Shown here in pieces: positions 3,310 to 15,198 of a stretch of 17,608 nt of DNA. The translations under genes were made by a program, and so were the position numbers. Location: positions 1-17,608 of the forward strand of contig JADLHH010000117.1 in NCBI GenBank assembly GCA_020848855.1, read 5' to 3'. Source of the DNA: Anaerolineae bacterium (GTDB lineage Bacteria > Chloroflexota > Anaerolineae > Aggregatilineales > Phototrophicaceae). The number at the start of each line of letters is the position of its first letter. Within the stretch, counting starts at the first letter, position 1. The notes beneath the pieces were generated by a model. That model saw only the letters and a program-made list of their open reading frames with translations, was not told where the DNA came from and searched no databases.

Positions 3310-4314
3310 TTGACCTCGCTTGTGCTAACACTTACCGAGACGCTGCGCTATCGCGGCGCGATCGGGCAGTGGAGCTGGGTGCTGCACCGTATCACCGGCT
3401 TGGGCGTGCTGCTGTTCCTGACTCTCCACGTCATCGATACCTCGTGGTCGGTCTTCTACCCGGAACTGTACGTCGAAGCAATCGCCACTTATCAGACGCC
3501 GCTGTTCACCATCGGCGAGTTCGCGCTGGTGGCGGCGGTGGTTTACCACGCCCTGAACGGCATTCGGATCGTCGTCTTCGACTTCCGCCCGCGCTGGTGG
3601 AAATACCAGCAGCGCGCCGCTTACTGGGTGCTGGGGATCAGCGTCGTGATCTGCGTGCCCACTTTCCTGATCATGTTCGCGCACGTCCTCGACTTCTACA
3701 ACAGCGGCGGACAGGTGCTGGGGCTGGTCGAAGTGCTGACCGCTCAGCTTCCGTTCGTGGCGGGCTTTGCAGCCGCCATTATTGCCGCGCTGGTGCTGGC
3801 GGGCGTGTCGTCGGTCATCCTGCCGGATCGCCCACAGACCGGCAGGCCGCGCGCCAGCCGTCTGGAGAAATTCTGGTGGTCGTACATGCGCGTGAGCGGC
3901 ATTTTGATCCTGCCGCTGGTGTTCGGTCACCTGGCGATGCAGCATCTGATTCAGGGCGTGTTCGACATCACCGCTGCCGGACATTCGGTCGTCGGAACCG
4001 ATTTGGTCAACCAGACCGGCACGTCGGTCGAATTCGTGGCGCGGCGCTGGCAGATGCTGGTCGCCGGGGTGGCGGTGTGGCGCGTTTACGACATCGCCCT
4101 GCTGGCGCTGGCGGTCATTCACGGCTTCAACGGTCTGCGCTATGTGCTGACCGATTACACGATGGAATCGACCTGGCTGAAGCGCGCGGCGATCTACCTG
4201 TGCGTGATCGCGGCGGTTATCCTGCTGGTGCTCGGCGGGCTGGCGCTGTTCAGCACGATTGATCAGTCGGCAATCGACATCGCGCAGCAGGCGGCGCAAA
4301 CCTTGCACGAATGA
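3310..4314 (+). CDS. sdhC: Succinate dehydrogenase membrane anchor, fused SdhC-SdhD (cytochrome b subunit)
   Basis: 334-residue membrane protein that would anchor the SdhA-SdhB catalytic dimer and pass electrons to quinone. Two anchor modules are visible in tandem. The SdhC-like half has SWVLHRITG (22-30) and HALNGIR (80-86) followed by Asp91. The SdhD-like half has SYMRVSG (191-197), His207 and His212, and HGFNGLR (271-277) followed by Asp282. Each HxxxG[IL]R motif is a candidate heme or quinone site. I count hydrophobic segments at about 28-48, 67-90, 104-127, 148-170, 192-215, 253-280 and 293-316, seven in all. Ordinary SdhC and SdhD have three each, both starting in the cytoplasm. The extra segment at 148-170 is what a topologically correct head-to-tail fusion needs. 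Known one-chain anchors (type B) have five helices, so this is not simply one of those. No separate sdhD follows. Confidence 0.85.
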   Translation: MTSLVLTLTETLRYRGAIGQWSWVLHRITGLGVLLFLTLHVIDTSWSVFYPELYVEAIATYQTPLFTIGEFALVAAVVYHALNGIRIVVFDFRPRWWKYQQRAAYWVLGISVVICVPTFLIMFAHVLDFYNSGGQVLGLVEVLTAQLPFVAGFAAAIIAALVLAGVSSVILPDRPQTGRPRASRLEKFWWSYMRVSGILILPLVFGHLAMQHLIQGVFDITAAGHSVVGTDLVNQTGTSVEFVARRWQMLVAGVAVWRVYDIALLALAVIHGFNGLRYVLTDYTMESTWLKRAAIYLCVIAAVILLVLGGLALFSTIDQSAIDIAQQAAQTLHE

Positions 4315-4330
4315 GTCGTTGAGGTTCGGC

Positions 4331-5254
4331 ATGGCGGACAGCACAAGCTCAACTCCTCGAATCATTGCAGCGTGGGTGATGGTCGTTATCTTCGCCATCT
4401 TCTGCCTGATCCTGCTGCCGATTGGACTCGACGCGGGCAACACCGAGCTGCTGGTTGGCTTCGGCTCGTTCGTGCTGTGGATGGTGATCATGGGCATCCT
4501 GCTCACGCTCGACTGGATACCGTCCAGCCGGGACGATAGCTGCGTCGCCGACCACGACTGTCACTGCGAAGCGCTGCTCTCTGGGCATAAGAAAATCAAG
4601 CAGCCGATCAATACCTGGTCGGATCTCGGCTTCGTCGCCGGCGGCTTGATCATCATGTTCCTGATCGGTCAGGATCGGCTGAGCGGCGTGCCTGCCGCCA
4701 ACCCGATGCGCGAAACGAGCCTGTATTCCATTGCCTACGGCTTGCTGGCGATCTACCTGGGACCCGGCAGCATGTTCTACCACGCCTCGATCAAGAAATG
4801 GGGCGGCTGGGCGGATAACATGTCGATGGTGCTGTGGACGGCGTTCCTGCTGGTGTACGTGTTCGCGCGCGGCATCCCGCTGCCGGACAGCCTCGCCGTG
4901 ATCGTCTTTCTGGTGATCGTCTCGACCAGCGGCGTGATCATCTGGTTCGTCGAAGGCAGCGGCAAGTATATTTTTGGCGGTATGGTCGCGGTATGGGGCG
5001 TTCTGGAGATCGTCATTCTGATCGCCCAGGCGACCGGCGGCGCGATCATGGGGCTGCACCGCACCGAGTGGGGATATCTGGTCGGCGCGGGCATTTCGTT
5101 CGCGGCGGCTGTCATCATCTGGACGTATTCGAAAGACGGCAAGCCCTGGTGCCGCCCGTATTCGGTCGCGCAGGGGCACGCCATCTGGCATTTTCTCTCG
5201 GCGCTGAGCGCGTACTTTATCTTCCTGTACCTGCGTTCAGAAGTTATGGTCTAA
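4331..5254 (+). CDS. Ceramidase-like CREST-superfamily membrane hydrolase
   Basis: 307-residue polytopic protein, probably a zinc-dependent membrane amidase or lipid hydrolase. I chose ATG 4331 (GAGG at 4321-4324) because the frame upstream overlaps the anchor gene in a different, arginine-rich register. The catalytic pattern of alkaline ceramidases is fully present: Ser147 and His151 four residues apart (GPGSMFYH), Asp162 eleven further on, and His283/His287 in the last helix (GHAIWH). This Ser/His/Asp/His/His spacing matches that known for human ACER3, where the three histidines bind zinc. The N-terminal segment CHCEALL and IKQPINTWSDLGFV (77-102) corresponds to the calcium-site region of ceramidases, with Gln91 where ACER3 has a glutamate. 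It lies 16 bp after the anchor gene and 9 bp before sdhA, so it is surely co-transcribed with sdh. The substrate is unknown; ceramide is only one option. Confidence 0.82.
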   Translation: MADSTSSTPRIIAAWVMVVIFAIFCLILLPIGLDAGNTELLVGFGSFVLWMVIMGILLTLDWIPSSRDDSCVADHDCHCEALLSGHKKIKQPINTWSDLGFVAGGLIIMFLIGQDRLSGVPAANPMRETSLYSIAYGLLAIYLGPGSMFYHASIKKWGGWADNMSMVLWTAFLLVYVFARGIPLPDSLAVIVFLVIVSTSGVIIWFVEGSGKYIFGGMVAVWGVLEIVILIAQATGGAIMGLHRTEWGYLVGAGISFAAAVIIWTYSKDGKPWCRPYSVAQGHAIWHFLSALSAYFIFLYLRSEVMV

Positions 5255-8325: not shown

Positions 8326-11300
8326 CTACCGCACCGGCAGCACCTCGCGCGGCTTGCTGCCTTCGGTCGCCGGACCGACGATGCCGCGCTCCTCCATCAT
8401 GTCGATCAGCCGGGCGGCGCGGGTGTAGCCGATGCGCAGGCGGCGCTGGAGCAGCGACACCGACGCCTTGTTGAGCCGCCGCACCATCTCGACCGCCTGC
8501 TCGTACAGTTCGTCCTCGCCGTCGCCGGGGTCGTTCTCGTCGTCGACGGTATCATCTTCGTCCTCGTCGTCATCCCAGAAGGCGGTCGCCGGGCGCGGGC
8601 TGTCGGCGCGTTTCGGCTGAGCGTTGCTGCGCATGATCACACCGCCGCCCTCGCTGCGGCTGCTGTCGTCCGGCGACAGGCTGCCGCCAATTGGTCGTGA
8701 CGCGGCGATCAGGTCGTCCTGCGTCATCTGGCTGCGCCAGAAATGGGTGATGTTGTTGATCTCGTTGTCGGAGACGTACACGCCCTGCAAACGCACCGGC
8801 GCGGGCGAGTCGCCGCTCATCCACAGCATGTCGCCGCGACCGAGCAGACGTTCCGCGCCGGGCTGGTCGAGGATGACGCGGCTGTCGGTGTTGCCGGCGA
8901 CGGCGAACGCCACACGCGCCGGGAAGTTCGCCTTGATCAAGCCTGTGACCACGTCCACCGACGGGCGCTGCGTGGCGATCACCAGATGGATGCCGGTGGC
9001 GCGCGCCAGCGCGGCGATGCGCGTGATCACCCGCTCGGTTTCGTCGGGGGCGAGCATCATCAGGTCTGCCAACTCGTCGATGATCACGACGATGTAGGGC
9101 ATCTGCTCCTCGGTGGCGGGCAGGTGCTTGTTGTAATCCTCGATATTGCGGGCGGCGGCGTTGCTGAACTTGCGGTAGCGCTCGTCCATCTCGCGCGTGA
9201 CCCACTTGAGCACGCTGACGATGCGCTCCAGCTCAACCACCACCGGCGCGACCAGATGCGGCACGCCGTTGTACTGCGTCAGCTCGACGCGCTTGGGGTC
9301 GACCATGATGAACTTCATGCGCTGCGGCGGGTTGTTGAGCAGCAGCCCGGCGATGATCGCGTTGACCAGCACCGACTTGCCCGATCCGGTCGTCCCGGCG
9401 ATCAACAGGTGTGGCATCGAGCCGAGGTCGGCGGCGACCGGCGTGCCGTCCACCCCCTGACCGAGCGCAATCGCCAGCGGCGACTTGATCTTCTTGAACT
9501 CCGGCGATTCGAGCACGTCGCGCAGGTGGACGATCTCGGCTTTCTCGTTCGGCACTTCGACGCCGACGTAGCCTTTACCGGGCACGGGCGCTTCGATACG
9601 GATCGCCTTCGCGCCGAGCGCAAGCTGCAGGTCTTTGTCCAGCGCCGCGATTGCACCGACCTTGACGCGGTTCTTTTTGCCGCCGCGACCGGGCACATAA
9701 TCCGGCTCGACGCCGAACTGAGTGACAACCGGACCGGTGCGCACGTCGACCACGCGCCCCGGCGCGCCGAAGCTCGACAGCGTTTCCTCGATGATGTGCG
9801 CCCGCTTGAGCAGCATTTCGTGATCCGGCGCTTGATCCACGCCGGTCGCCAGCAGCGCCGACGGGTCGGGCAGCTTCCAGTCCTTCTTCGGGCGGCGCGC
9901 TTGAGGCGGCGGCGTCACGTCCGACGAAGGGGCATGGGTGCTGCGCGTCGGCTGGGCGGACGGCAGGTCAGGCGGCTTGCCGAATGCCGGGGACGCCGTC
10001 GAGCGCGGCGGTTCTGCCAGCGGCGCGCGTGGCGGCGGTGCGGTGGCTCCGCCGGTGGTCGATTCGCGCAGCGTGCGCATCCGGCTCTGTAGGTCGGGCA
10101 TCGGTTCCGCCGAGCGCGGCTCCGGCGCTTGCTGTGAAATGCGCGCGGCTGGCGCTTCGGCTGGCGCTTCGATGGGGAAAGCGGCGGGCGTCCCGGCAGG
10201 TATGCCATTCGGCTTGCGCTCGCCGGATGGCGTCAATTCGGGGCGCTGCGGGCGCGGATACGGCTGCACGCCGCCCGGCGGTGCGCCGGGAGTCGCCGGC
10301 GTCTGGCGGCGCAGCAGGTCGCTGAGGCGCGGCGTCTTGTCTTCCGGCTGAGGCGTCGGCGTTGCAGCGGGTGTTGGCTTCGCCGGCGTGGACGCTTCCG
10401 CTGCCTGAGCCTGCAACGGCGGCGTTTGCGGCTGCGCCGGTGCGACTGCGGCGGGCGTTTCGGGCACGGGGTCGGGGTCGGGCAGCAGCGCGGCAGCCGC
10501 CCCCGCGACCACAGCGGCGACCGTGCCAACGGCGCTGCCGTTCGCCTGCTGCCGCCCGGCGAACAGCCGACCCCGCAACGCCGAGGCTTTCTCGGCGGCG
10601 GGTTGTTGAACGGGCTGCTGAACGGGTTTTTCGACCGGTTTTTCGGTTTCCGGTTTATCGCGCCCCGGCATAATGCTGCGCACCCGCGAGAATAAGCCGC
10701 CGGATTTTTCCTCCGCGACCGGGATCGGCTGCGGCGCGGCTTCCGCCATCTCCGGCGCGCGGAACGGCACGCTGCTGGTGCGTCCGGCGGTCGTGATTGG
10801 GATGCGGCGGCTGCTGACTTCCGCTGCGGCGGGCGCGGGCAGCGCGGGCGATACCGGGGTCGGCAGCGCTTCGGCGGGCTTGCTCACGCTGATCTGCTGG
10901 GTAGCGGTCGCCAGCACCTGCTGCTTCTCGGCGCGTTCGGCAGCGATGCGCTGCTGGCGCTGGTGCATGGCGTCGCGCAGGTTGCGCCCGTTGCTGATGA
11001 GGATCATCGCCAGGTCAGCCGCGCTGACGTTCAGCGCCAGCATCAAGCCGACGATGACCGGGATGAACACCACCAGAAAACCGCCGATCTCGCCGAAGTT
11101 GCTGAGCAGCAGGAAATAGATTTCGCCACCGACCCAGCCGCCGCCGCGTCCCAGTTCGTAGGCGGGTTCCAGAAACGCCATCTTGATCGTCCGCAGGTAG
11201 TCTTGTCCGGGACCGACCTTGTACTGGAAGGCGTCGATGAACTGCGCCAGCACCAGCAGGCTGACGAACAGCAGCCCCAGCCCGATCAGCCGCGTGCGGC

Positions 11301-12876
11301 TGATGGTCGGCGCGTCGTCGCCGAAGTGCCGCAGGATCAGCCAGACGCCGATGGCGAAGGTGACGAACAGCACGAACATCGCGCCCCAGCCGAAGGCATA
11401 GGACAGCCGGTGATTGATTGATTCGGTCAGCGCGCCTTTGGTGGGCGACAGGCTGCTGAGCAGCAGCACCAGCGAGCCGAGCACCAGCGTCACGCCGATG
11501 ATGTCCAGCTTGCTGTCGAGCGACAAGCCGCCCTGTTCGACGCGCGGCGCCTTGCTGGCGCGCGCCCGCGCCGGGCGTGCCTCTTCCTTCTTCTGGAATG
11601 GATTCAGCCCGCGCAGCCGCTCGCCGAGTGACTGCTTCTGCGCGCCGGTGGTGCGCGCGCCGCCGGCAGCTCCATACGATGAGCGCGCGCCGCTGGAACT
11701 GCCGAACGCTGAACTGCTCGGCTCTGGCTTGTTGCCCCGGCTCAGCGTCCCGCCCAGCGGGCTTTGCTGGCGCGATGACTGATCGCCCAGCCGACTGGAG
11801 CCGAACGCGCCCGACGCGCCGGCGGTTGGCTGTTTTTCTTCCTTCTTGCCGCCGCCAAAGCGCGAGGTCAATCCGCCGAGACCGCCGCCCTGCTTCGGCG
11901 CGCCGGAGGTGCCGGGCTTGTCGTCTTTTTTACCACCGCCAAAGCGCGAGGTCAGCCCACCGAGACCGCCGGGGCGGTCGTTCTGCCTGGTGCTGGAGCC
12001 GAAGGCGCTGGGCTTGTCGTCTTTTTTGCCGCCGCCAAAGCGCGAGGTCAGCCCGCCGAGTCCGCCGCCGGAGCGGTCGTTCTGCTTGGCGCTGGGCTTC
12101 TCGTCTTTCTTTCCACCGAAGCGGGAAGTCAGCCCGCCGATACCGCCGCGCTTTTCCTCGGTCTTTTCGCTCGTACCGCCGTAAGTCGAGCGATTCGCCG
12201 CGCCAAAGCCGCTGGATGTGCGCTCGTCGCGCCGGTCGCCGCCACCCAAACGGGACGCGCCGCCGGGGGAGCGTTCATCGCCGCTGCCGCTGTCGCCAAG
12301 ACGCGATGGATTGCCAGACATGCCGCCGGACGTGCGCTCGTCGTTGCCGCCGAGGCGCGTCGTCTGCCCGCCGAGTCCGCGCGTTAGCCCGGACGACCGA
12401 TCATCGCGCTCGTCGCCGCGCTCGCGCCCGCCGAAGCGCGACGGATTGCCCGATACGCGCTCGTCGTCCCGCTCGGACGAGCGGTCGCTGCCGAGCTTCT
12501 GTCCGAAGCTGCCCAGCGCCCGGTTGACGGCGGCGCTGCGGTCGTTCGGGTCGTCGGTCTGGTCATCCCGGTTGCCTGGCGTGCGCGGCGGAACTGGATT
12601 GCGCTGGTAAGGCTGGACGCCGCTCGGCGCAGGACCGGCGGTTCGATTCGGCGGGTTGTTGGGACCGCCCAAGCCGCCCGAACGGATCGGGCTGGGCGTC
12701 GTGGGGGGTGTGCCGCTCTGCGTCGGCTGGGGGCGCGCGGGCAACCCCGCCCCGCGCACGGTGCTCGGTCGGCTAAAAGGATTCGATGTCGAGCGGCGAA
12801 CGCCGCCCTCATCGTCTATTTCATCATCGTCGTCGCGTTCGTCCTCGTCGTCGTAATCGTCGTCATATCGACTCAT
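8326..12876 (-). CDS. ftsK: DNA translocase FtsK/SpoIIIE with long N-terminal extension
   Basis: 1516-residue septum-located motor that pumps chromosomal DNA at cell division. Order of parts: Asp-rich N-terminus (4-23); Gly/Arg/Ser/Pro-rich low-complexity region to about 445 with repeats; membrane helices near 457-477, 494-515, 530-549 and 585-617; a charged helical stretch (620-660); a Pro/Ala-rich linker to about 1000; and the alpha/beta motor. Motor motifs are Walker A GTTGSGKS (1161-1168), the DPKRVEL loop (1193-1199), Walker B VVIIDELAD (1263-1271), the ATQRPSVDVV segment (1301-1310) and LLGRGDML (1344-1351). An acidic block (1435-1455) precedes the gamma winged-helix domain (about 1456-1516, YTRAARLIDMMEERGIVGP), which reads orienting sequences on DNA. 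In usual FtsK the membrane helices come at the very N-terminus; here about 450 residues precede them. The start ATG at 12876 gives the MSRYDDDYDD opening and is the only plausible one near the divergent intergenic region. Confidence 0.95.
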   Translation of the reverse strand: MSRYDDDYDDEDERDDDDEIDDEGGVRRSTSNPFSRPSTVRGAGLPARPQPTQSGTPPTTPSPIRSGGLGGPNNPPNRTAGPAPSGVQPYQRNPVPPRTPGNRDDQTDDPNDRSAAVNRALGSFGQKLGSDRSSERDDERVSGNPSRFGGRERGDERDDRSSGLTRGLGGQTTRLGGNDERTSGGMSGNPSRLGDSGSGDERSPGGASRLGGGDRRDERTSSGFGAANRSTYGGTSEKTEEKRGGIGGLTSRFGGKKDEKPSAKQNDRSGGGLGGLTSRFGGGKKDDKPSAFGSSTRQNDRPGGLGGLTSRFGGGKKDDKPGTSGAPKQGGGLGGLTSRFGGGKKEEKQPTAGASGAFGSSRLGDQSSRQQSPLGGTLSRGNKPEPSSSAFGSSSGARSSYGAAGGARTTGAQKQSLGERLRGLNPFQKKEEARPARARASKAPRVEQGGLSLDSKLDIIGVTLVLGSLVLLLSSLSPTKGALTESINHRLSYAFGWGAMFVLFVTFAIGVWLILRHFGDDAPTISRTRLIGLGLLFVSLLVLAQFIDAFQYKVGPGQDYLRTIKMAFLEPAYELGRGGGWVGGEIYFLLLSNFGEIGGFLVVFIPVIVGLMLALNVSAADLAMILISNGRNLRDAMHQRQQRIAAERAEKQQVLATATQQISVSKPAEALPTPVSPALPAPAAAEVSSRRIPITTAGRTSSVPFRAPEMAEAAPQPIPVAEEKSGGLFSRVRSIMPGRDKPETEKPVEKPVQQPVQQPAAEKASALRGRLFAGRQQANGSAVGTVAAVVAGAAAALLPDPDPVPETPAAVAPAQPQTPPLQAQAAEASTPAKPTPAATPTPQPEDKTPRLSDLLRRQTPATPGAPPGGVQPYPRPQRPELTPSGERKPNGIPAGTPAAFPIEAPAEAPAARISQQAPEPRSAEPMPDLQSRMRTLRESTTGGATAPPPRAPLAEPPRSTASPAFGKPPDLPSAQPTRSTHAPSSDVTPPPQARRPKKDWKLPDPSALLATGVDQAPDHEMLLKRAHIIEETLSSFGAPGRVVDVRTGPVVTQFGVEPDYVPGRGGKKNRVKVGAIAALDKDLQLALGAKAIRIEAPVPGKGYVGVEVPNEKAEIVHLRDVLESPEFKKIKSPLAIALGQGVDGTPVAADLGSMPHLLIAGTTGSGKSVLVNAIIAGLLLNNPPQRMKFIMVDPKRVELTQYNGVPHLVAPVVVELERIVSVLKWVTREMDERYRKFSNAAARNIEDYNKHLPATEEQMPYIVVIIDELADLMMLAPDETERVITRIAALARATGIHLVIATQRPSVDVVTGLIKANFPARVAFAVAGNTDSRVILDQPGAERLLGRGDMLWMSGDSPAPVRLQGVYVSDNEINNITHFWRSQMTQDDLIAASRPIGGSLSPDDSSRSEGGGVIMRSNAQPKRADSPRPATAFWDDDEDEDDTVDDENDPGDGEDELYEQAVEMVRRLNKASVSLLQRRLRIGYTRAARLIDMMEERGIVGPATEGSKPREVLPVR
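11827..12147 (-). repeat. Tandem repeats in the FtsK N-terminal region
   Basis: Four copies of a protein unit GLGGLTSRFGGGKKDDKPS (allowing small changes) begin near residues 244, 272, 304 and 332, with a period of 28 to 32 residues (84 to 96 bp). At the DNA level the cores are nearly identical, for example the + strand string CCAAAGCGCGAGGTCA recurs near 11855, 11940 and 12034. Weaker relatives (SRFGGRERGDERD, SRLGGGDRRDERT) extend upstream to about residue 145. Copy number is likely to vary between strains. Confidence 0.8.
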
Positions 12877-12971: not shown

Positions 12972-13045
12972 CAAATTGCCAACGGCGCAGATTAGAATAG
13001 CACAAGAGTTCTAAAATAGCTTTACGAACTTAACGGGCACACCCG

Positions 13046-13054
13046 TGCTACAAT
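13046..13054 (+). promoter_or_regulatory. Extended -10 promoter of the divergent small gene
   Basis: TGC TACAAT (TG 13046-13047, hexamer 13049-13054) is a good extended -10. Transcription would start near 13061, after the GTG at 13045, so that upstream codon cannot be the start. This supports ATG 13090. No convincing -35 is present. Confidence 0.45.
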
Positions 13055-13089
13055 ACTTTCGTGAAAGGTGTAAACGCCGGAGCCTTCCG

Positions 13090-13563
13090 ATGTTTGCCTC
13101 TGCCGAATTCCTGTGGCGCATCAATCAAGAGTACGTGAACCGGTTGGCGCGAGCGCGCAATTATCTTGACCTGCTCGAACAGTTGGTGCTCGAACGCGGC
13201 GGTGACGAGCTGAGCCATCGTTTCCTGCCGACGCTGCGCTTCACGCGCATGAATCTGGCGAGCCTGAGCGAAGAACACCGCGACTGGTGCTATACCTACT
13301 TCTATGAGACGCCGGACAGCAAACGGATGGTGCACGCGCCGTCCGCCGTGCGCCGCGCGCTCTCGAACTTCCGGCTGATGCGCGAACGGCAGGCGCACGC
13401 CTTCCACGACGTGGCGGCGCTGCTCGTCAAGCTGCCGCGCCCCGCGCCTTCCATCACCCGTGTCCCGAATGGCGATCTGTGGGACATGCTCCAGCGTGCG
13501 CTGCGCGATCTGGTCGATTTCGCCTCTGACGAGGAATTGCAGCCCGCCAGCATCCTGCGCTAA
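13090..13563 (+). CDS. Hypothetical protein, 157 residues
   Basis: I do not recognise this protein. ATG 13090 is chosen because GGAG (13079-13082) sits 7 nt upstream and an extended -10 lies just before; an in-frame GTG at 13045 overlaps that promoter. The chain is soluble by composition, with no signal peptide or membrane helix, and mostly helical, with many Arg, Leu and Glu. Conserved-looking stretches include FLWRINQEYVNRLARARNYL (7-26), the aromatic cluster DWCYTYFYETP (65-75), and a C-terminal helix LWDMLQRALRDLVDFASDEE (130-149). There is a single cysteine (67). It is divergent from ftsK with 213 bp between starts and convergent with the kinase/receiver gene. The divergent arrangement with ftsK could mean shared regulation, but no functional link can be shown. 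Confidence 0.7.
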   Translation: MFASAEFLWRINQEYVNRLARARNYLDLLEQLVLERGGDELSHRFLPTLRFTRMNLASLSEEHRDWCYTYFYETPDSKRMVHAPSAVRRALSNFRLMRERQAHAFHDVAALLVKLPRPAPSITRVPNGDLWDMLQRALRDLVDFASDEELQPASILR

Positions 13564-13686: not shown

Positions 13687-15198
13687 TCAATTGAGCGACT
13701 GCAATTCATCCAGCAGGATATAGCCCTGCCGCAGCGCCTGCAGCGCCGCCGCGTGGCGGTCTTTGGCGCGCATCTTGTCCATCGCCCCCGCCAGCGTCTC
13801 GATCAGCATTGGCACGGGCAGGTTGAGCCGCTCGGCGATCTGTTCGTTATCCATACCCCCGGCGATCATCAGCAGCACCTGACGCTCTTCGTCGGTCAGG
13901 CGGTTGGGGTCGGCTTGCGGCTTGAACAGCCCGGTCACGACCTTTTCTGCCACGCCCTGTCCCAGTACCAGCGTCCCCTGCGACACCTTGAGGATGGCGT
14001 CGATCAGGTCGCTTTCGCTGGCGGATTTCAGCACGTAGCCGTTCGCGCCCGCGCGCAGCGCCTGCGTGATGTACCACTCCTCGTCGCGTCCGGTCAGCAC
14101 CAGCACGCGGACGTTGGGCGCTTTCTCGCGGATTTCGGGCAGCGCCTCCAGACCACTTTTGCCCGGCATGTTCAGGTCGAGCAGCAGAATATCCGGTTGA
14201 AGCTCGACGGCGAGCCGGACGGCGCCGTTGCCTTCGCCCTCTTCGCCGACGATCACGAATTCGTCGCGCTGCGACAGAAAGTTGATCAGCGTCTTGCGCA
14301 GCATGGCGTGGTCGTCCGCCAGCGCGACGCGCATCGGCACACGCTCGTGGGGGATCGGCGCTGACTGCGACGACTGGGTCGCTGTATCGGAGACGCGTTC
14401 CGGTCGCTGGATGGCTGCCAACGCCTGCGCCAGCGCACCGGCGCTCTGGAAACGGCGCACCGGGTTCTTTTCGAGCGCTTTCAGCACGATGTTTTCCAGT
14501 GCGACCGGGATATTCGGGTCGAGCATCCGCAGCGGTGCGGGCGACTCCCGGACGTGCTGGAGCAGCAGCGCGGGGATGTCGTCCGACGTGAAGGGGAGAT
14601 CGCCGGTTGCCAGTTCGTACAGCACAATGCCGAGCGAGTAGATGTCGGTGCGATAATCCAGCGACAGTCCCTGCGCCTGTTCCGGCGAAAGATATGCCGG
14701 CGTGCCGATGATCATCCCGGCGCTGGTCACGCGCTTGGCGTCGCGCGGGAGCGCCAGCCCCAGGTCCATGATCTTGACCTGTCCATTGGGCGCGACCTTG
14801 ATGTTGGCGGGCTTGATGTCGCGGTGGATGATGTGATGCTCGTGGGCGTAGTCCAGCGCCAGCGCGATCTGCCGACCGATCTCGATCACCGTATCCGGCG
14901 GCGACGGGACGTGGTCTTCCAGCGTATCGCCATCGACGTATTCAACCACCAGAAAATGAATGTCGCTTTCCTGGTCGATATCGTAGATCGACATAATGCC
15001 GGGGTGGTTCAACTGCGCGACCGCCGTCGCTTCCTGAAAGAAGCGGGCGCGCACCGAATCCTTGACGTGCGGTAACAGGACTTTCAGGGCGACGGCGCGC
15101 CCCAGTCGTGTATCGAGCGCTTTGTAGACGGTCGCTGTCGAGCCTTCGCCCAGCAGCGTCTGAACCTGATACCGGTTGCGTAAGGTGTGTCCGAGCAT
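13687..15198 (-). CDS. Ser/Thr protein kinase fused to receiver domain and LuxR-type HTH
   Basis: 503-residue soluble protein with three domains. Residues 10-265 are a Hanks-type kinase: Gly loop GEGSTATVYK (17-26), Lys39, Glu56, catalytic HRDIKPAN (125-132), metal site DLG (145-147, instead of DFG), and GTPAYLSPEQ (165-174). All catalytic residues are present, so it should be active. After a short polar linker (266-288), residues 289-405 are a response-regulator receiver: acidic pair Asp295/Asp296, phosphoacceptor Asp341 (LLLDLNMPG), Thr369 and Lys391, again complete. Residues 433-495 match the LuxR/NarL helix-turn-helix (LTDEERQVLLMIAGGMDNEQIAERL), but the recognition helix is altered. There is no membrane helix or PASTA domain, unlike PknB. 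Kinase and response regulator normally sit in separate proteins. The start ATG 15198 has AGG 6-8 nt upstream. It follows an AI-2E family gene by 86 bp. Confidence 0.93.
   Translation of the reverse strand: MLGHTLRNRYQVQTLLGEGSTATVYKALDTRLGRAVALKVLLPHVKDSVRARFFQEATAVAQLNHPGIMSIYDIDQESDIHFLVVEYVDGDTLEDHVPSPPDTVIEIGRQIALALDYAHEHHIIHRDIKPANIKVAPNGQVKIMDLGLALPRDAKRVTSAGMIIGTPAYLSPEQAQGLSLDYRTDIYSLGIVLYELATGDLPFTSDDIPALLLQHVRESPAPLRMLDPNIPVALENIVLKALEKNPVRRFQSAGALAQALAAIQRPERVSDTATQSSQSAPIPHERVPMRVALADDHAMLRKTLINFLSQRDEFVIVGEEGEGNGAVRLAVELQPDILLLDLNMPGKSGLEALPEIREKAPNVRVLVLTGRDEEWYITQALRAGANGYVLKSASESDLIDAILKVSQGTLVLGQGVAEKVVTGLFKPQADPNRLTDEERQVLLMIAGGMDNEQIAERLNLPVPMLIETLAGAMDKMRAKDRHAAALQALRQGYILLDELQSLN

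Follow-up and report, generated by a model that had tools for sequence, protein, structure and literature searches.

The window analysed here, a stretch of 17,608 nucleotides, contains on its minus strand a single ATG-to-stop frame of 503 amino acids (13687-15198), which raises the question of what a Hanks-type Ser/Thr kinase, a response-regulator receiver and a LuxR-type domain accomplish when they are carried by one chain. The first-pass annotation had placed all three on one protein, and three Pfam matches within this frame bear it out. The features of the protein are as follows.

13687-15198, minus strand: whole open reading frame, Hanks kinase, receiver and LuxR-like domain (503 aa).
14431-15171, minus strand: PknB-like Ser/Thr kinase, residues 10-256 (Pfam PF00069, E 1.7e-46).
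14335-14430, minus strand: variable linker, residues 257-288 (mean pairwise identity 0.228 in 61 sequences; pLDDT below 50 at residues 266-285).
13993-14328, minus strand: receiver, residues 291-402 (Pfam PF00072, Response_reg, E 3e-24; conservation).
13744-13902, minus strand: LuxR/NarL-like helix-turn-helix (HTH) domain with an altered recognition helix, residues 433-485 (Pfam PF00196, GerE; marker loss; fold in the model).
13771-13815, minus strand: equivalent of the recognition helix, residues 462-476, VPMLIETLAGAMDKM (helix at 462-476 in the model; marker loss).
13690-13740, minus strand: conserved C-terminal tail, residues 487-503, with an extra predicted helix at 496-501 (identity; helix in the model).

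A frameshift or assembly error joining two genes, which the first-pass annotation had considered, can be ruled out, because the homologues are full length with kinase and receiver and align over 99-100% of the query, P0006 (74%) being the exception. Of 7184 proteins at E values up to 1e-30, the best 120 formed the homologue set, 119 of which, the query excepted, share 58-91% identity with it; in these best 120, the kinase and receiver entries of Pfam were listed for all and the GerE entry for 87, with 33 lacking it (counted by hand). P0006, a 665-residue homologue whose kinase C-lobe is internally duplicated almost exactly (this may be an assembly artefact), is left out of the 119-homologue set on account of that duplication. 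A second set of 61 order sequences was taken from loci L020-L075 and L077-L110 with a filter of 400 bits and 480 residues, four being set aside and the query included; a rough containment comparison puts the overlap with the 119 at no fewer than 12 of the 61.

With a search profile built from an alignment of 25 members, one Chloroflexota order (the order of G001) yielded orthologues in 97 of 154 genomes, as one full-length match in 87 genomes and as a match cut or in pieces in 10; three of these ten had two matches each, representing apparent split genes in G444 and G531 and an ambiguous case in G538. The class search returned a match in 25 of 396 genomes, 24 of them inside the fusion-carrying order, and the phylum-wide search in 3 of 400. 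Absences from genomes are provisional, since nine candidates per genome were scored in the order search and three in the class and phylum searches. Among 20 listed members of the 57 order genomes with no match, 11 had 8-16 kinase candidates at a first look, compared to 47-203 in genomes with a match, so a scarcity of such kinases in some lineages may account for part of the absence. Judging by the names of matches P0137 and P0181, the order is probably Aggregatilineales, a described bacterial order (PMC8067394). The fusion is conserved order-wide, normally in one copy per genome. In a kinase-domain tree, 33 order fusions group apart from five other kinases of these genomes, with support (94/96) just below the tool's mark for firm support, and the placement of L101, a fusion from outside the order, is unsure because long branches were flagged. 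A single-protein search of genome contigs gave 19 partial matches, mostly to the receiver/HTH half and at most 38% identical.

The kinase domain is intact in its catalytic residues. G17/G19, Lys39, Glu56, His-Arg-Asp127, Asn132, Asp145-x-Gly and Pro172-Glu173 are identical in 120 of 120 sequences, query included, as are the activation-loop residues T158 and T166; the window protein thus has the residues that define a Hanks-type kinase, and a pseudo-kinase reading is rejected on the retention of the catalytic residues in the 120 homologues and the 61 orthologues. Thr158 is presumably the equivalent of PknB Thr171, and the position of PknB Thr173 is not kept, residue 160 being Asp in 63 of 120, Ala in 29, Glu in 17 and other residues in the rest. 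PknB is the best solved match both by sequence (E 4.8e-58) and by fold (42% identity), and the best 50 matches of the PDB fold search were kinases only. Although the kinase domain resembles those of PknB, StkP and Stk1/PrkC, the fusion differs from PASTA-type kinases in that it has no transmembrane segment and carries a receiver where they have an outside sensor. The NCBIfam PASTA-kinase model matches residues 3-277 with 329 bits, below its equivalog cut-off of 450, the Pfam scan of the window protein gave no match to PASTA repeats, and the maximum 19-residue hydropathy is 1.13, as against 3.28 in an AI-2E transporter control; a value above 1.9 was reached by 0 of 120 homologues. On score, membrane helix and repeats alike, the protein falls outside the PASTA kinases (PknB equivalog). 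L32 and D73, which correspond to residues of the PknB dimer face, are invariant in the fusions; conservation of a PknB-like dimer face was nevertheless set aside as evidence because it is unspecific, being largely common to the few unrelated kinases compared.

The receiver is also well preserved. Asp295, Asp296 and Lys391 are invariant across the 120 sequences (query included) and Asp341 is kept in 119, with one gap, while position 369 holds Thr in 114 sequences and Ser in the other 6; in the 61 order sequences, the named kinase and receiver residues are kept in 61 of 61, residue 369 being Thr in 58 and Ser in 3. The window protein therefore has the acidic pair, phospho-acceptor Asp, switch Thr/Ser and Lys of a response regulator (D295, D296, D341, T369 and K391, together with Y388 and with S392 beside K391), and a pseudo-receiver reading is likewise rejected on the retention of these active-site residues in both sets. 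In this respect, the catalytic residues that the first-pass annotation had reported as retained (Lys39, Asp127, Asn132 and Asp145 in the kinase; Asp295/296, Asp341, Thr369 and Lys391 in the receiver) proved invariant in the kinase and practically so in the receiver. The receiver and C-terminal half align nearly over their whole length with NarL (E 5.5e-34) and, ungapped, with VraR (E 3.9e-32). Since the protein has no transmembrane segment, the receiver is its sole recognisable input domain, and this favours a kinase activity gated by the receiver.

The GerE match (residues 433-485, E 1.6e-6) is weak but above threshold, with 28.1 bits against a Pfam cut-off of 23.5, and the LuxR domain is predicted to keep its fold, Pfam and an AlphaFold2 model being in agreement. 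The model has a mean pLDDT of 84.7, with ten-residue blocks of 84-94 across residues 431-490. The structure prediction suggested by the first-pass annotation for domain contacts accordingly delivered the domain folds but not their mutual arrangement, the relative placement of the domains not being predicted because pTM is only 0.53 and the linker has pLDDT below 50. Across the 61 order sequences, mean pairwise identity is 0.670 in the kinase, 0.599 in the receiver and 0.447 in the HTH, and the C-terminal tail (0.544) exceeds the HTH; of the folded segments measured, the third helix (0.333) has the lowest conservation, for which relaxed constraint is another possible reading. The HTH is under purifying selection in close pairs: in the 12 closest pairs listed (overall pS 0.20-0.41), which are not independent of one another, HTH pN is 0-0.062 and pS 0.16-0.33.

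For the recognition helix, a marker of Thr464 plus His, Tyr or Gln at 468 was defined from relatives and chosen after a stricter version. None of the 119 homologues or the 61 orthologues carries it, and none of 64 further matches binned as fusion pieces, compared with 53 of 56 proteins in a stand-alone bin delimited by eye, by rank, and 21 of 21 in a second stand-alone set; P0190 and P0197, among the misses of the bin, look like fusion fragments and were left in it. The stricter four-position signature gave 0/119 and 0/61 versus 51/56 and 15/21, and was too strict in that it fails in 6 of the 21 stand-alone regulators, in L101 and in NarL itself. At the helix positions, the close homologues have Ile466 in 98, Glu467 in 115, Leu469 in 108 and Ala470 in 115 of 119, a pattern that is looser across the order (Ile466 in 42, Glu467 in 43 and Arg467 in 10 of 61). 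The missing Lys at 466 is uninformative alone because stand-alone regulators often have E, Q or D there. Mean HTH net charge (residues 432-486) is -1.23 in the 119 and -2.31 in the 61, versus +3.3 in the stand-alone bin and +1.05 in the second stand-alone set; it is above zero in 10 of 119 homologues and 2 of 61 orthologues, and the second stand-alone set stands out less clearly from the fusions, 6 of its 21 members having no positive net charge. In addition, a C-terminal tail motif is shared by 115 of 119 close homologues and 44 of 61 order sequences, whereas the stand-alone bin has it in 2 of 56 proteins; one of these two carriers, P0190, is apparently a fusion fragment. Compared to the NarL/FixJ regulators NarL, VraR, DesR and DosR, whose receiver and C-terminal half resemble its own, the fusion thus has a kinase in front, a lost marker, a mostly negative HTH and a conserved extra tail; it has the GerE fold of these transcription factors and lacks their recognition-helix marker. 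For the LuxR-type domain of the first-pass annotation, fold and Pfam match stand and the recognition-helix marker is absent, and the expectation that this HTH is an ordinary output or a target of the kinase is not supported, the marker being missing in every order fusion examined.

The marker loss does not follow from fusion itself, since the helix is normal in two fusions from other parts of the phylum (TVRNQV in L100 and TVKNHV in L101), both (2 of 2) carrying the marker, with GerE scores of 52 and 75 bits versus 28 in the window protein; the HTH net charge of L101 is -1 despite its normal helix. L100 (also L119) is Ca. Chlorohelix allophototropha WP_341472197.1, encoded at 224287-225915 of NZ_CP128402.1, a 241-kb plasmid record. 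Its kinase shares 61% identity with a kinase domain in G859, and a 237-residue frame in G861 matches its receiver-HTH at 68% identity; by this comparison L100 is apparently a separate, recent fusion. It has the same domain order as the window fusion but differs in its normal HTH, its plasmid record and an adjoining histidine kinase (HisKA_3, HATPase_c) on the same strand, which ends 45 bp upstream; a receiver in this architecture can therefore plausibly have a kinase partner. The adjoining histidine kinase is large and carries beta-propeller-like repeats.

These observations weigh on the view that the fusion is still a transcription factor, its altered helix binding DNA in another manner and its kinase phosphorylating its own receiver or HTH on a second signal. 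In favour of this view, the HTH fold is retained with high confidence in the model, the GerE match is above cut-off in the window protein and present in 87 of the 120 homologues listed, Arg or Lys stands at 467 in 12 of 61 order sequences, and 117 of 119 fusions retain Lys475, as do 53 of 61 order sequences and 56 of 56 stand-alone proteins, so that some DNA contact by the fusion HTH is conceivable. Separate Ser/Thr kinases are also reported to phosphorylate such regulators: Stk1 acts on VraR at four Thr, including Thr106 as well as Thr175 and Thr178 in the DNA-binding domain (PMC4601284), and PknH acts on DosR at T198/T205 in the dimerisation helix alpha-10, reports differing as to the effect on DNA binding (PMC12919924). 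However, the marker is absent from both fusion sets, the HTH charge is mostly not positive, and the VraR sites of the DNA-binding domain, Thr175 and Thr178, correspond to Pro461 and Met464 of the window protein (of the 119 homologues, 54 have Ser/Thr at 461 and 18 have Thr at 464); the remaining VraR site apart from Thr106 aligns with Val405. A transcription factor of this kind is considered unlikely.

Somewhat less probable still is a kinase that acts mainly on its own receiver, phosphorylation of Ser392 locking or blocking the aspartyl switch in a self-contained two-input gate. Residue 392 aligns with VraR Thr106, an Stk1 site reported in PMC4601284; Ser or Thr stands there in 115 of the 119 fusions and in 56 of the 61 orthologues, but in 20 of the 56 stand-alone proteins. 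At position 303, 105 of the 119 fusions have Ser/Thr, whereas 54 of the 56 stand-alone proteins have Gly. On the other hand, the same 20 of 56 indicate that Ser/Thr after the switch Lys also occurs in ordinary receivers, so its conservation may be structural; residue 303 is Ser/Thr in only 44 of 61 sequences across the order, and the specificity of the kinase for its own receiver is only putative.

The genomic surroundings bear on where the receiver takes its signal. As the first-pass annotation had stated, no histidine kinase is encoded nearby, none being present among the 12 window ORFs scanned with Pfam. Around 31 related loci, a histidine kinase was confirmed in at least one of 61 adjacent ORFs (beside L086, divergently oriented); neighbours were chosen by a simple longest-ORF rule, the listing covered 25 of 61 matched families, 18 distinct adjacent ORFs were rescanned in full, and the scan omits a 2,439-residue ORF beside L077 and missed L097 in ORF picking, so that a further kinase may be present. 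With one histidine kinase confirmed among the 61 ORFs, the receiver looks orphan, and the proposal of the first-pass annotation that it takes its signal from a distant partner is plausible. A conserved operon or partner gene was also sought and rejected, no conserved neighbour being found across 34 other loci, where the neighbourhood changes from genome to genome. It is improbable that the kinase is constitutively active and that the receiver and LuxR-like half mainly scaffold or localise it, with aspartyl phosphorylation mattering little: the lack of a conserved nearby histidine kinase in the loci scanned would fit, but the near-complete retention of the receiver active site across the order would then be unexpected.

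Receiver control of the kinase, one of the two options raised by the first-pass annotation, is the favoured reading, and we give about an even chance to its full form, a soluble receiver-gated PknB-type kinase in which the LuxR-like part is a dimerisation or docking module. In such a protein, a soluble PknB-type kinase would have its own response-regulator module as input. Asp341 would be phosphorylated by an unlinked histidine kinase or a small phosphodonor, and this would alter how the receiver and LuxR-like half dimerise or pack, which in turn would either bring two kinase domains together or release an inhibited kinase. The kinase domains would then autophosphorylate on the activation loop (Thr158) before phosphorylating Ser/Thr substrates. 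NarL-style DNA reading would be lost from the LuxR-like domain, which would act in dimerisation or docking instead, so that the chain would convert an aspartyl-phosphate signal into Ser/Thr phosphorylation. We infer receiver gating, the dimer route, the loss of DNA binding and all substrates of the fusion. Seen across the order, the protein may tentatively be regarded, at somewhat short of even chances, as a fixed, vertically inherited response regulator with a Ser/Thr kinase output in place of DNA binding, whose old LuxR HTH has turned into a coupling or dimerisation module.

Several known systems come close to this arrangement. Kinases of the HstK type, which we take to be the cyanobacterial cbSTKIII kinases, carry GAF and histidine-kinase domains, whereas the fusion carries a receiver and HTH instead and has no HisKA/HATPase Pfam match on its chain. 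The cbSTKIII kinases are described as combining a Hanks kinase with two-component domains on one chain (PMC2176072). In Stk1-VraR, PknH-DosR and StkP-ComE, both phosphorylation chemistries are reported to meet on one regulator (PMC4601284, PMC12919924, PMC6010298); in contrast to the fusion, these systems keep the kinase on a polypeptide of its own and have a DNA-binding regulator. In the publications found, Hanks kinases and response regulators cross-talk through separate proteins, with DNA as the end point. No study of a kinase-receiver-LuxR protein was found among the matches listed from open-licence PMC papers, as judged by titles and the beginnings of abstracts, and literature searches on the NarL residues and the PknB dimer face returned no match. 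The first-pass annotation had asked whether this architecture is common and already characterised; it is common, being order-wide, and a characterised member was not found. Within the literature searched, an order-wide fusion with a remodelled HTH appears undescribed, although each of its parts is familiar. With an order-wide protein that joins both chemistries on one chain and has a remodelled DNA-binding domain, direct control of a Hanks kinase by a receiver could be tested on a single purified protein, and the Ca. Chlorohelix fusion, with its normal HTH and adjoining histidine kinase, offers a natural comparator.

Some further features of the loci deserve mention. An ORF of 172 residues (window 13045-13563, plus strand) has no Pfam match and recurs in 3 of 34 other loci; it adjoins the fusion in the window, L081, L086 and L105, and lies between ftsK and the fusion in the window, L081 and L105. 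The ftsK gene is near the fusion in 3 of 34 other loci. In L091, L092, L102 and L108, a protein of about 200 residues without a Pfam match (cluster 9) is encoded directly downstream of the fusion on the same strand, with an overlap or gap of -3 to 85 bp. The window also encodes an ABC peptide transporter, a succinate dehydrogenase set, FtsK, an AI-2E-family transporter and a mannosyltransferase-like protein whose match is below the Pfam cut-off. A ceramidase-family membrane protein (PF05875, E 4e-14; window 4259-5254, plus strand) is encoded inside the succinate dehydrogenase gene set, and FtsK (window 8326-12876, minus strand; 1516 aa) has a very long N-terminal region, its FtsK alpha domain starting at about residue 1005.
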